Assembly: GCA_023078555.1 (NCBI GenBank)
Contig: CM041196.1
Location: forward strand, 7,141,985-7,205,984
Length of the DNA: 64,000 nucleotides
Source: Ulva prolifera
Lineage: Eukaryota; Chlorophyta; Ulvophyceae; Ulvales; Ulvaceae
Reading direction: 5' to 3'
A program made the translations under genes and the position numbers. Below the pieces are notes generated by a model. That model was given only the letters and a program-made list of their open reading frames with translations. It had not been told where the DNA came from and searched no databases. This document shows, in pieces, positions 16,419-61,907 of this stretch (within the stretch, counting starts at the first letter, position 1; each line of letters starts with the position of its first letter).

Positions 16419-19400
16419 CTACGCTCCGCCGGCGTCCGCGTCGGGGTCCAGCGGCACCGCGGCGGCCCCCGGGGTCGGCACGGCGGTGACCTTGCCGGCG
16501 TAGGTGGTGCTGGTGGCGAAGATGGCGTTGCAGCTGGCGTAGAACTGCGGCATCGTCGGCCGGAGGGCAGGGTCGCGGCGCAGCAGCTCGAGCACCGGCC
16601 CCCGGAACGCCCCGAGGGCGCGGCGGTCCGCCTCCGACAGCGCGTCCCACGGCGCCGGCGTCTGCCCGAGGATCTGAGAGATCACCTGTAGCCACAACAG
16701 CCACGTGACTCGCCATGGCACGTCGACAGAAGCCCTTGTGACGCACCACAGCAGCTCACCTCCAGGACAGTACACATCCCCCAAAGCTGCCCGGTACATG
16801 CTGCAGCAGGCTCTGTGATCGACTAGCCTGCACCAAGCCCGGGAGAACACCTCCGCATACACCGTGGCGAGTGCCAGGTACATATCACACTCCAAACAGC
16901 AGCTCGGTGATTGCCTGCTGGCCAGAACAAACAGGAAAGCAGCAGGGCGGAGCGGCAGCAGTAGTCCCGCACCTGGTCCCGGCCCAGCATGAACACGTCG
17001 AACGCCGGCCGCCCGGTGAGCAGCTCAAACACCATCACCCCGAGCGCCCACGCGTCCACCGCCGCCGCCGCCACGACCTCCTTCCGGCCCTGCTTCAGCG
17101 CCGCTAGCACCTCCGGCGCCGCGTACGCAAACGTGAACGTCAGAGGCACCGCCTCGCCGATGCGGCCGGCGGCGCCAAAGTCGATGAGCGTCCACTGGTT
17201 CTCGCGCGGCAGCCACATCACGTTCGCAGGCTTGAGGTCGCGGTGCGCGTACCCCGCGTCATGCATGTCCTCCAGGCGTTTCGCAATGTTCGCGAGCACC
17301 TGCACGCAGCACCGAGGTGGGGCCTGGAGATAGACCAGGTAAAAAAGATGCCAGCGGGGTCTGGGGGCCTGCGGCAGTGAGAGCGATTGCCGCAGTACGC
17401 AGCCGCATCCCGAAGGTAGCCGCGATCAGGACCCTCAGTCGGCGATGAAAGCTACAGCATGCAAACGTGGGTGACACGCAGCAGGGGTAGCACGCAGCAC
17501 GCGGGGCAGGCAGAGCCTGCCGGGAATTCCCCCCCCCCCCCACTCTGCGACAACCACCTCTGCTGGAATCGGCACTGCTATCAACATCTCGCAGACATCA
17601 GATGTTCATCTGCGGCCAGCCTCGCGGCAGAGGCCACCATGGCCCAAGTTACACAGGCACGGCCCCGCAGGGGTGTGGCGCACCGGCATCGCGGCCCACA
17701 TGTCGGGCTTGCGCCGCCGCGACCACTCGTCGAGGCTCTCCCCGCGCTCCATGATCACGAACGGCGGCAGCGGGTTGCCCGCCGCGTCCTGCACTGCGCC
17801 GTCCTCGTTGTCCACCATGCCCTCGAGCCGCGGCAGCAGCTTGCCGAGCGGCGAGTCGGTGTAGAAGCGGCGCTCCGCCTCGAACGACTCCCGCGACACG
17901 AAGAACTTGAGCGCGTACTGCCCGCGGTCGCGCACGCTGCGCGCAAACTGCACGATCGCCTGCCCTGCACAGCACACAGCATGGCAAAAATCACGTGCTA
18001 GAGCAGCAGGCTCCGCACAAGGCCGCACCGAGGCGGAGCATGCGATGCGGTCACACCACCAATGCATGCATGACGTGCATGCATGGCCCATGTGTGTGTA
18101 TGTGTGTGGCTACAGCGGTGTGCACGGAGGAGCAGGCGCGCACCGCCGGCGCGGCGCTCGGCGCCGCCGAGCAGCACGAAGCGCTGCAGCAGCGGCATCT
18201 CCCCGAGGCTGTCCAGCTGGTACTCCACCCACGCCTTGATGTCCTCGTCGGACGCGCCGGCTGCGGGGGCGTCGCGCGTACCCGCCGCCGACGTCAGCCC
18301 GAACGTCGTCAGGCCCACCCCGTCGCTCGTGCGAAGCGGCGTCTCCCGGGTGCTCGCGATGCTGCTGAACGCGCCGCCACCATCGGAGCCGTAGTGCGCC
18401 GCGGCGGAAGTCCCCTGCTGTTCGAGGGTGCTCGCCGACATCACGTCCAGCGGCAGCGGTTTGTACCCCGGGGCCGCCACCGGCTTCTCTGCAGCTTCGA
18501 CCGCGACCGCACCCGACTTGCCGGGGGCGCCCGCCCCGGCTGCAGCCTCCTGTTCCTGGTCCCGCCGCAGCTTCCGCCGGTAGCAAACGGCGCCGAGGAT
18601 GCATGAGATCATGCACGCGATGATCGCGCACCCGATTCCAACGAAACCCCACGTGGACATTCCGTCGTCGTCGCCGCCATCCCGCGCGTCGAGCTCACGC
18701 GGCGCGCCCTCTGGTGGCAACAAAAAGTCGTCCGGGAAGAGCATCGACGCGATCGCATGCATGATGGAGCCCGGCGCGCATGCATTGAGGTCCGCTTCAA
18801 TGATGCCGACGGTCCCGGCGGGCGCGTTGGAGTTGGCGCCGCGGCCAGAGGTGTCCGAGAGGGACAGCGCGAGCCGCAGCTGCTGGCCGTCAGCATTGAG
18901 GGTGGGTATGAGTGTACCCTCTCCGGCGACGAGGTCGTCCGAGTCGATGAATTGGGGGATCATGTGGAGGGAGACAATGCTCCAGATCTCGGAGGCGGTG
19001 AGGGCCTCCTTCTCAAAGGCGTAGAGGATGCCGTTGAGGTGGGTGCGGGGGGGGACGAGGAGGGTGATCGTGGCGTTGGGGTCATAGAAGAGCCAGTTCT
19101 CATCGGCGGGCGCCGCCTGGAACGGAATGGCACTGTCAGGGAGGGAGTGTATTTGGAGTTACCTGCGATATCTTGCTCGGGCCGTGACCGATCTGCCGTT
19201 GAACCCAGGTGGATGTGAATGGTCAGGCGAAAGCGGTCGCGCGGTTGCGACTGAGGGGACGGAAGATAACAGGCCGGACTGCAGTGCCCTGGATGAGGGA
19301 GGTGGCCGGGTGACGCAGAGACTCTGTTGGAGAGGCAGGCTCTGGCTGTGTACACGTGGTGCCTGTGGGGCCGACATGCACCAGGTCGTTTGAACTACAG

Positions 19401-19676
19401 AGGTCCACACGTGCCATCGCACAACTCGTGGGGAGACAGGATGGAACTGCAGATGCGCGGCACGGGCAAGCGTCGCGTGAATTGGCTCACACGATGTGAT
19501 GCATCCAGGATTGGCATGCTTGTGGGTTCACAGGCCACGGCGCAGAGAGGCATGCGCACCAGCGGGACAATCTGATCCACGAGAGTGGCAAACTCCGGAG
19601 AGGTCTGTTGGAGTGCGTCCTGGACGATGCTGCAGCGTTGTCCAGTCGGTGCGGGGGCCAACGTGTCCGGGACATC
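16419..19676 (-). CDS. Fas1-domain transmembrane protein kinase (kinase 1), 5' end unresolved
   Basis: Mapped exons in coding order are 19560-19676, 18144-19116, 17684-17964, 16973-17299 and 16419-16685, giving 654 residues in continuous phase. The order is a fasciclin domain (ATITLLVPPRTHLNGILYAF, SLHMIP, then a CAPGSIMHAIASML end strand); one transmembrane segment (GFVGIGCAIIACMISCILGA) with a basic stop-transfer; a Gly/Ala/Ser-rich juxtamembrane region; then a kinase. The kinase has the lysine strand ALKFF, a helix-C glutamate in FEAERRFY, catalytic HRDLKPAN, DFG, AAPE and [20 protein letters not shown]. All catalytic residues are present, so an active Ser/Thr-type kinase is expected. By topology Fas1 would face outside and the kinase the cytosol. 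The first exon and signal peptide upstream of 19676 were not identified. The ligand is unknown. Confidence 0.85.
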
Positions 19677-61000: not shown

Positions 61001-61907
61001 TCGGCCGCACTCGCATGCATGTGGGGTTGGCTGTGGTGGCTGCGCGCATGAGGTAGGTTGTCTGCAGCGTGTGGCATTCGCAAAGGCCAAGATGCATCTG
61101 TTCCAGGTCCCCGTGCTGTGCTGCGTGCTATGCCACGCAGCGACAAGAGACCTCGGGCGAATGTGCCTGGCACATGCATTCCTAGATGACATGCATGCAT
61201 CATGCGGACTACAGGAGGCGGGAGACGCTTGGGCGCAAAGACCTCAACATGAAGGCCTGGTAGACCATGCAGGCCTGAGGGCAATCCCGGACACACCCGG
61301 CGCTGGGCTGATGCATGCATGCATGCTTGCAGAACTGAGGGATCGGTCGACCAGACCCACAGCCGTACACGGTAGAGCGGTGCGACGCGGTGGCATGCAT
61401 GCAGCGCTCCAGCGTGCAAGCAGCGGATTAGTGCCCACAGACTGCGTCCCCTCCAAGCGAAGTGCTGTGTCAGCAGCGCTCCGGGAACTCTGTCACCCAA
61501 GTGGCGAGTAGCCGTGGTGACAGGGACATACCTTCTTCTGGGGCCACAGATGGGGCCGGCGCCGCCACGGGTGCGGGTGCGTCAGGGGTGTCGGCAGGCG
61601 CTGACCCCTCCCCGCTTCCTGCGTAGTCAGTGATACCGTAGTCCTGCTCCGGATCCACGTCGGGGTCCACATCTGGAGGCGCCGCCGCGGGGGGGTCCGG
61701 AGCAGTTACGTTCGCAGGGGCTGGCAGCTCCGGGGCGGGGGCGGGTGCGGGTTCAGGGACAACTGCAGCTCCTGTTGGGCCAGCTGGTGGGAGACCGGCA
61801 CTGTCGGGCTCGTCAGCATCTGTATTTTCGACCGTGGCGTAGTCAGGCAGCTCGTCGTCGCTGGCGGCGTAGTCGACTTCGGCGTCAGCAGGCTCGGGAC
61901 TAGCATC
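55011..61907 (-). CDS. Fas1-domain transmembrane kinase with Pro/Asp repeat stalk and degenerate kinase domain (kinase 3), 5' end unresolved
   Basis: Exons in coding order are 61532-61907, 59369-60984, 57632-58964, 56761-57041, 56191-56517 and 55011-55214, in continuous phase, giving 1,378 residues. The order is an acidic/Pro-rich start; a stalk of [12 protein letters not shown] repeats and DVDPD repeats; a Fas1 domain ([42 protein letters not shown]); a transmembrane segment ([20 protein letters not shown]) followed by RRRRRKR; a Gly/Ser-rich juxtamembrane region; and a kinase domain. ALKFF keeps its lysine and HRD is present, but the catalytic-loop Asn is His (HRDLKPGH), DFG reads DYA, and APE reads PPE. 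It is probably a pseudokinase or a weak kinase. The 281- and 327-nt exons match kinases 1 and 2. The first exon with a signal peptide, upstream of 61907, was not found. Confidence 0.85.
55581..55676. repeat. Four tandem 24-bp repeats in a kinase 3 intron
   Basis: The unit CTGCATGGCAGTGCACCACA followed by GCCA is present four times with one or two substitutions. It lies in the intron between the last two exons and has no spacers. Confidence 0.9.
59941..60575 (-). repeat. Coding minisatellite: 24-bp unit encoding TPVDPAPT
   Basis: About 26 units of 24 bp encode variants of TPVDPAPT ([23 protein letters not shown] and others). Within about 60180-60560 a four-unit, 96-bp block (TIPV-, ATPV-, TTAV-, ATPV-) recurs about three times, showing recent higher-order duplication. 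The product would be an extended Pro/Asp-rich stalk. Confidence 0.9.

Follow-up and report, generated by a model that had tools for sequence, protein, structure and literature searches.

Predicted genes joining divergent Fas1 domains to receptor-like kinases in the alga Ulva prolifera

Introduction

In land plants, genetic evidence connects the Fas1 protein FLA4 with the receptor kinases FEI1/2, and the passages of PMC6032426 that deal with them describe the mode of their interaction as open. A natural algal fusion of a Fas1 domain with a kinase would constitute “Rosetta stone” evidence that the input to a kinase can come straight from Fas1 domains, and would provide one protein in which a direct link between the two can be tested. 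A 64,000-nucleotide stretch of the Ulva prolifera genome (hereafter, the window; GC content 61.6%) raises the question of whether such a fusion exists. A preliminary description of this DNA recognized three minus-strand genes with a common exon skeleton, two of them comprising an extracellular Fas1 domain, a single transmembrane segment and a kinase, and noted that this architecture is not one recognized from standard families, in agreement with the literature searched, where the listings and passages yielded no Fas1-kinase fusion. Here we ask whether the two parts belong to the same genes, whether the ectodomain is Fas1, and what distinguishes these genes from other kinases of the same genome.

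Results

Gene models and exon skeleton

Exon coordinates and splice sites bear out the positions of the three genes, the first exon originally given for gene 3 (up to 61907) being a candidate, and the following features were delineated.

19560..19676, minus strand: gene 1, exon probably coding for the N-terminal part of Fas1; acceptor CAG/GAT, donor CTG/GTGCGC; the 5' limit is a candidate acceptor
18144..19116, minus strand: gene 1, exon encoding the greater part of Fas1, the hydrophobic span and the juxtamembrane region; 973 nt, AG/GT flanks, ends in phase 1
17684..17964, minus strand: gene 1, kinase exon k1; 281 nt, AG/GT flanks
16973..17299, minus strand: gene 1, kinase exon k2; 327 nt, with intact HRDLKPAN and DFG
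16419..16685, minus strand: gene 1, last kinase exon with stop; spliced open frame
25687..26302, minus strand: gene 2, juxtamembrane-type exon; frame open into k1, candidate 5' end
25167..25447, minus strand: gene 2, kinase exon k1; 281 nt, AG/GT flanks
24608..24934, minus strand: gene 2, kinase exon k2; 327 nt, with intact HRDLKPGN and DFG
24005..24232, minus strand: gene 2, last kinase exon with stop
59369..61243, minus strand: gene 3, long open frame running from a Pro/Thr-rich stalk to the probable N-terminal part of Fas1; the 5' limit marks where the frame opens and is not an established exon boundary
57632..58964, minus strand: gene 3, exon encoding the greater part of Fas1, the hydrophobic span and the juxtamembrane region; 1333 nt, ends in phase 1
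56761..57041, minus strand: gene 3, kinase exon k1; 281 nt, AG/GT flanks
56191..56517, minus strand: gene 3, kinase exon k2; 327 nt, with His in place of the catalytic-loop Asn and DYA in place of DFG
55011..55214, minus strand: gene 3, last kinase exon with stop; spliced open frame

The consecutive 281-nt and 327-nt exons (k1 and k2) are present in all three genes, with AG and GT on all flanks, and are entered in phases 1 and 0, respectively; the exon upstream of k1 ends in phase 1 in each case (in gene 2, at 25687), so that this part of the preliminary description holds. The donors are mostly of the GTGCG type. A fourth Fas1-transmembrane-kinase gene (gene 4, locus L043) lies just beyond the end of the window and was read piece by piece for Fas1, span and kinase, and about 14 kb further there is an FLA-like Fas1 gene whose product combines an AP-rich linker with a hydrophobic C-terminus that lacks a basic tail. 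Both are outside the window covered by the preliminary description, which also does not mention the degenerate kinase of gene 3 discussed below.

With its four introns removed, gene 1 has an uninterrupted frame of 654 codons that leads from Fas1 through the hydrophobic span to the kinase stop; the spliced model of gene 3 is likewise open over the same course, and the layout of gene 1 recurs in genes 3 and 4. This combination is beyond chance. The joined kinase of gene 1 matches PF00069 (E 4.6e-24), and in both genes 1 and 3 a single hydrophobic span, followed by basic residues, comes after the Fas1-like domain (hydropathy was read by eye for the cluster genes and with a simple script for their kinase relatives). 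The architecture of a receptor-like kinase, that is, an ectodomain, one span and a kinase in one frame, is thus seen in the spliced models of genes 1 and 3, the two window genes for which it had been proposed, and exon by exon in gene 4. The stalk of gene 3 contains a 24-nt repeat in 25.8 copies (59951-60570). Third codon positions differ most in all nine comparisons made (for example, 54.6% vs 51.1% and 45.4%), an excess so small that it argues only weakly for constraint.

Given that GC-rich DNA keeps many frames open, the joined appearance of the Fas1 and kinase parts might be spurious, the two being separate or overlapping genes. The window is indeed GC-rich and contains long chance frames, and the models, which were built from DNA alone, have candidate 5' ends; however, in genes 1 and 3 (and, piecewise, in gene 4) a single exon holds most of Fas1, the span and the juxtamembrane region and ends in a phase-1 donor that matches the k1 acceptor, and other kinases of the family also have an upstream span. 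We consider separate genes very improbable, and a single mRNA would be expected to encode both Fas1 and kinase.

Gene 2 showed no Fas1 match, so not every gene of the cluster has Fas1, and inspection of its upstream exon by eye revealed no membrane span. A beta-helix open frame at 29617-30519 was considered as a gene 2 ectodomain and rejected because it ends with a stop and no span is visible by eye between the two; a Met-led N-terminal frame at 31440-32150 also counts against it.

Identity of the ectodomain

The search of the joined proteins against Pfam, put forward in the preliminary description as a check, matched Fas1, with scores under the gathering score of PF02469 (22 bits): 19.6 bits (E 0.0011) for the correctly spliced gene 1 peptide, 19.8 bits for a hand-joined gene 1 peptide and 17.7 bits (E 4.4e-3) for a hand-joined gene 3 peptide, the splices of both hand-joined peptides being off by a few residues. 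Neither gene thus attains formal membership in the Pfam FAS1 family, and annotation by the Pfam cut-off would miss the Fas1 domains of these kinases. The Fas1 of gene 3 is 43% identical to that of gene 1.

Homology to accepted FAS1 proteins is upheld by a family profile. The five best PDB matches of a profile built from genes 1, 3 and 4 are all FAS1 proteins (E 5.6e-5 to 0.01), astaxanthin-binding Fas1 proteins are found among its PDB matches, and the sixth (E 0.021) is not Fas1. The same profile matches the Fas1 frames in 8/8 control loci, L001-L008 (L001-L007 overlap in one region of C4, and L008 is on C10), and none of 3084 shuffled frames at E<=1; in a profile-profile comparison (hhalign) with L001-L005, the cluster profile aligns over 105 columns with 94.9% probability and E 4.7e-8. 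A profile that included the nearby Fas1 gene (A1) gave better E-values and was set aside as evidence for the domain of the kinases. In addition, a CAG acceptor occupies the same place inside Fas1 in 5/5 control loci read, in genes 1, 3 and 4, and in the nearby Fas1 gene, with Ala-Ala-Pro next to it in gene 1 and three control loci. Structure prediction for the gene 1 Fas1 exon, based on two sequences only, yielded a model too weak to count (pLDDT 52.9), with no Fas1 chain among the 50 matches listed of 251. As judged by these sequence comparisons, the Fas1 domains of genes 1 and 3 are real but divergent.

The preliminary description placed Fas1 in exons 18144-19116 and 57632-58964. In both genes, the domain probably starts in the upstream exon (19560-19676 in gene 1 and the frame ending at 59369 in gene 3), so the exons originally named would hold its larger, C-terminal part. 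The upstream start is suggested by conservation between the cluster genes and the nearby Fas1 gene: the 19560..19676 exon, the frame of which joins the downstream exon in phase 0, is conserved with genes 3 and 4 and with that gene. With correct splicing, the Pfam match in gene 1 starts no earlier than the second exon.

The cluster within a genome-wide kinase family

The exon skeleton cannot serve as proof of a private three-gene family, because it is a trait of a wider kinase family, in which the 327-nt exon is common (22/32) and the 281-nt exon marks a subset (7/31). Relatives of the kinase were found at no fewer than 80 further places in the genome, with 35 of the 80 picked places within one 1.5-Mb stretch of C5; in viral contigs, three stretches matched a pattern and none was confirmed. 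The four genes of the cluster constitute one side of a tree branch with 97/90 support, so the cluster is local as described, with a fourth member outside the window and kinase relatives throughout the genome. Among the 60 PDB kinase matches listed of 1364, which are PknB-type and other Ser/Thr kinases, plant RLKs are absent.

The relatives share the design of membrane span, the same juxtamembrane region and kinase, and vary in their ectodomains, which appear solenoid-like by eye; sub-threshold ectodomain matches were obtained only for L048 (PF20585, E 0.027) and L050 (PF13229, E 0.079), and L052 has a Pro/Asp-rich stalk. Kinase-linked Fas1 was found only in this cluster, the relatives examined carrying other ectodomains. 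It is the Fas1 ectodomain, not the kinase, that sets the cluster apart, the kinase being that of a large genome-wide receptor-like kinase family.

The expansion of this family on C5 and its varied ectodomains, together with the astaxanthin-binding proteins among the PDB matches, would suit a cluster that is one branch of a fast-expanding receptor family with an ectodomain serving other partners, in recognition of microbes or mates or of carotenoid-type ligands. The position of the internal acceptor, common to these and other Fas1 genes, and the presence of an FLA-like gene nearby appear instead to point to a wall or matrix source of Fas1, and we regard such partners as quite unlikely.

Active-site motifs

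HRDxKxxN and DFG, which we take to be the marks of an active protein kinase, are both retained in 27/28 kinases, including genes 1, 2 and 4; the sole exception is gene 3, which lacks both and, without the catalytic Asn and DFG, is probably a pseudokinase. The persistence of its open frame, stalk and Fas1 despite this loss is what one would expect if the proteins served to hold glycoproteins of the wall or matrix at the membrane, with a kinase end of little use in signalling, gene 3 being the extreme case; a purely structural role is also one option raised for FLA4-FEI2 in the relevant passages of PMC6032426. The retention of the catalytic motifs in genes 1, 2 and 4 speaks against this explanation, which we consider unlikely.

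Discussion

The best explanation of these results is that genes 1, 3 and 4 encode single-pass receptor-like kinases with a divergent Fas1 domain outside and a serine/threonine-type kinase inside. From sequence, a wall- or adhesion-sensing role, as originally suggested, can reasonably be proposed, and we think it fairly probable that the cluster encodes one-piece wall or matrix sensors that arose when a receptor-like kinase captured a resident Fas1 module and was then duplicated in place. Under this scenario, a kinase of the large resident family would have taken up a Fas1 module, complete with its internal intron, from the FLA-like Fas1 proteins of the same genome, and the fused gene would then have duplicated locally. 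At the cell surface, the Fas1 domain and stalk may engage glycoproteins or glycans of the wall or extracellular matrix, with tension or ligand occupancy altering receptor association and, through it, kinase activity; genes 1 and 4 could signal directly, and gene 3, with its degenerate active site, could act as an allosteric or decoy partner. More tentatively, and with considerable doubt, one may envisage a new class of surface receptors that combines a fasciclin-like wall protein and a kinase in one molecule, the active products of genes 1 and 4 pairing with a stalked pseudokinase co-receptor encoded by gene 3. If true, the natural fusion would support direct FLA-kinase signalling. The cluster further illustrates how exon capture may provide a receptor family with new ectodomains.

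In the Fas1 domain and, for gene 3, a Pro-rich glycomotif-like stretch, the Fas1-bearing cluster proteins resemble fasciclin-like arabinogalactan proteins (FLAs) and the Fas1 proteins of algae, Volvox algal-CAM among them, and they share the internal Fas1 acceptor position with the other Fas1 genes of this genome. We know of no kinase in the cytosolic tails of the mammalian stabilins or fission yeast Fsc1. Like the cluster proteins, these have Fas1 outside, a type 1 membrane span and a cytosolic C-terminus, but in the passages of PMC6032426 concerned they are described with cytosolic tails only, whereas the cluster proteins have a kinase there. According to the same passages, FLAs are GPI-anchored or soluble (PMC6032426); the cluster proteins, in contrast, do not conform to the FLA definition (GPI anchor or secretion, no cytosolic domain), as the hydrophobic span is followed by basic residues and a cytosolic kinase. 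Chimeric AGPs with kinase domains, PERKs and extensin-like receptor kinases combine, as gene 3 does, a Pro-rich ectodomain, a span and a kinase, and the parts of PMC5266747 and PMC7511660 that describe them mention no Fas1. The large receptor-like kinase family of the same genome has the juxtamembrane motif, kinase, 327-nt exon and span in common with the cluster and differs in its ectodomains. A further parallel is the Arabidopsis pair of FLA4/SOS5 and FEI1/FEI2, a Fas1 protein and receptor kinases that, in the sections of PMC6032426 devoted to them, are thought to belong to a single linear pathway and are connected with wall synthesis. There, however, the Fas1 protein and the kinases, which are LRR receptor kinases, are separate proteins, whereas the cluster genes would unite both in one polypeptide, the kinase of which is termed receptor-like here for its architecture.

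Gene structure of the receptor-like kinase cluster

The window, C1:7141985-7205984, lies in a genome of 88.9 Mb in 44 contigs and has a G+C content of 61.6%. It contains three related kinase genes, and a query with the Fas1 part of gene 1 found four places, namely genes 1 and 3, a fourth cluster gene just beyond the window end and a nearby plus-strand gene:

16419-19676 of the window, minus strand: gene 1
24005-26302 of the window, minus strand: gene 2
55011-61907 of the window, minus strand: gene 3
C1:7209640-7210002: Fas1 match of the fourth gene
C1:7226520-7226870, plus strand: match of the nearby Fas1 gene

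The preliminary description had proposed consecutive kinase exons of 281 and 327 nt (k1 and k2) in the same phases, and this was borne out in all three window genes, with AG and GT at the exon edges. Spliced models remain open for 654 codons with four introns in gene 1 (beginning with the exon that probably holds the Fas1 N-terminus and ending at the stop), for 740 codons in gene 3 (starting inside the first Fas1 exon) and from the juxtamembrane exon onward in gene 2. At the single transmembrane segment claimed for genes 1 and 3, inspection by eye showed one hydrophobic stretch followed by Arg/Lys. The fourth gene encodes Fas1, a hydrophobic span, a juxtamembrane motif and intact kinase motifs, and has the same k1 (281 nt) and k2 (327 nt) lengths.

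Other frames in the window were observed as follows:

8161-8526, plus strand: DinB_2 match (E 1.1e-3, below the DinB_2 cut-off)
8822-9274 and 9382-10104, plus strand: FGE-sulfatase matches (E 1.8e-7 and 2.3e-10)
29617-32150, minus strand, between kinase genes 2 and 3: clear right-handed beta-helix frame (PF13229, E 1.1e-16) with a possible N-terminal frame upstream and no membrane span visible in this region
44169-44558, minus strand: Exo_endo_phos2 frame (PF22669, E 3.1e-14), of the inositol-phosphatase kind

The DinB_2 and FGE-sulfatase frames lie within 7413-10104 (plus strand), in an arrangement known from EgtB/OvoA-type ergothioneine or ovothiol synthases.

Fas1 homology of the ectodomains

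The Fas1 domains claimed for genes 1 and 3 stand as homologs but not as formal Pfam members: their single-domain scores lie slightly under the PF02469 cut-off, and all four members scanned, including the nearby Fas1 gene, matched PF02469 at E<=10. We regard the ectodomains of genes 1, 3 and 4 as established Fas1 homologs. A profile built from these three genes alone had FAS1 proteins in all five of its top PDB places, with E values between 5.6e-5 and 0.01; a non-Fas1 protein ranked sixth at E 0.021. The profile also matched Fas1 frames in 8/8 control loci, of which L001-L007 overlap within one C4 region and L008 lies on C10. At E<=1 it hit none of 3084 composition-shuffled frames, and when it was aligned to a profile of L001-L005 the probability was 94.9% across 105 columns. 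An intra-Fas1 acceptor CAG occupies the same place in all five control loci read, followed by Ala-Ala-Pro (L001-L003), Ala-Ser-Pro (L004) or Glu-Ser-Pro (L005), and the residues after the acceptor are Ala-Ala-Pro in gene 1 and Val-Ala-Pro in gene 3; the fourth gene and the nearby Fas1 gene have the acceptor at the same Fas1 place with different residues after it. A poor-quality predicted structure of the Fas1 part did not recover Fas1.

Kinase relatives across the genome

The gene 1 kinase has at least 155 exon matches across the genome. Among the matches listed, 80 places outside the cluster were chosen at a mutual spacing of at least 2.3 kb; C5 carries 36 of them, and 35 of these form a large array of related receptor-like kinases at 7.2-8.7 Mb, a sign of strong local expansion. 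In a sample biased toward best matches, from which four partial k1 and four partial k2 matches were dropped, both k1 splice sites lie at the gene 1 positions in 30/31 loci, with lengths of 281 to 434 nt (281 nt in 7/31), and 22/32 loci have both k2 splice sites and 327 nt. In seven relatives the acceptor of k2 is absent, so that k1 continues directly into k2.

Several relatives have a hydrophobic span upstream of the kinase, according to a simple hydropathy script. The stretches examined of six relatives (L047, L048, L050, L053, L054 and L055) gave no Fas1 match, and the ectodomains of these relatives appear solenoid-like; a Pfam scan of L047, L048, L050, L053 and L054 gave sub-threshold ectodomain hints in L048 and L050 only. 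One further relative, on C8, has a Pro/Asp-rich stalk. Among the matches listed, inspection by eye revealed no Fas1 place within 10 kb of a kinase place outside the cluster.

Two side observations concern individual matches. About 6 kb before the window start, within C1:7131985-7141984, the minus strand holds a kinase match that is divergent from gene 1 (35-38% identity), and no k1 partner was found for it. Matches of equal score and identity at C7:625988-626662 and C23:14061-14735 suggest that C23, of 28 kb, is a duplicated or haplotype contig.

Probable cluster unity and putative function

In a tree of 28 kinases (four k2 rows without full k1 excluded), the four cluster genes fall on one side of a branch with support 97/90. 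Genes 3 and 4 sit on long branches and midpoint rooting places the root within the cluster, so that the four genes are likely, though not proven, to be a clade. HRDxKxxN and DFG are retained in 27/28 kinases examined, the exception being gene 3, with the catalytic loop HRDLKPGH and DYA in place of DFG. Gene 3 also contains a 24-nt repeat (25.8 copies) encoding a Pro-rich stalk, and its predicted product resembles a pseudokinase receptor on a stalk.

The 60 PDB matches listed for the kinase, of 1364, consist of PknB-like kinases and further Ser/Thr kinases. On the best reading of this domain anatomy, the Fas1-span-kinase proteins are putative wall or matrix sensors: Fas1 outside the cell would serve adhesion or contact with a glycoprotein or glycan, a single span would join it to the Ser/Thr-type kinase, and the sensor would have arisen when a kinase captured a Fas1 module already present in the genome. 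The partly covered open-access literature on Fas1 and kinases or on algal receptor kinases yielded no Fas1-kinase fusion. The nearby Fas1 gene (~83.1-85.0 kb in extended window coordinates, ~14 kb past the fourth gene) encodes two parts that resemble Fas1 and a linker rich in Ala and Pro. The C-terminus of its product is hydrophobic and lacks a basic tail, in which it resembles GPI-anchored FLAs, and we infer that the product is GPI-anchored.
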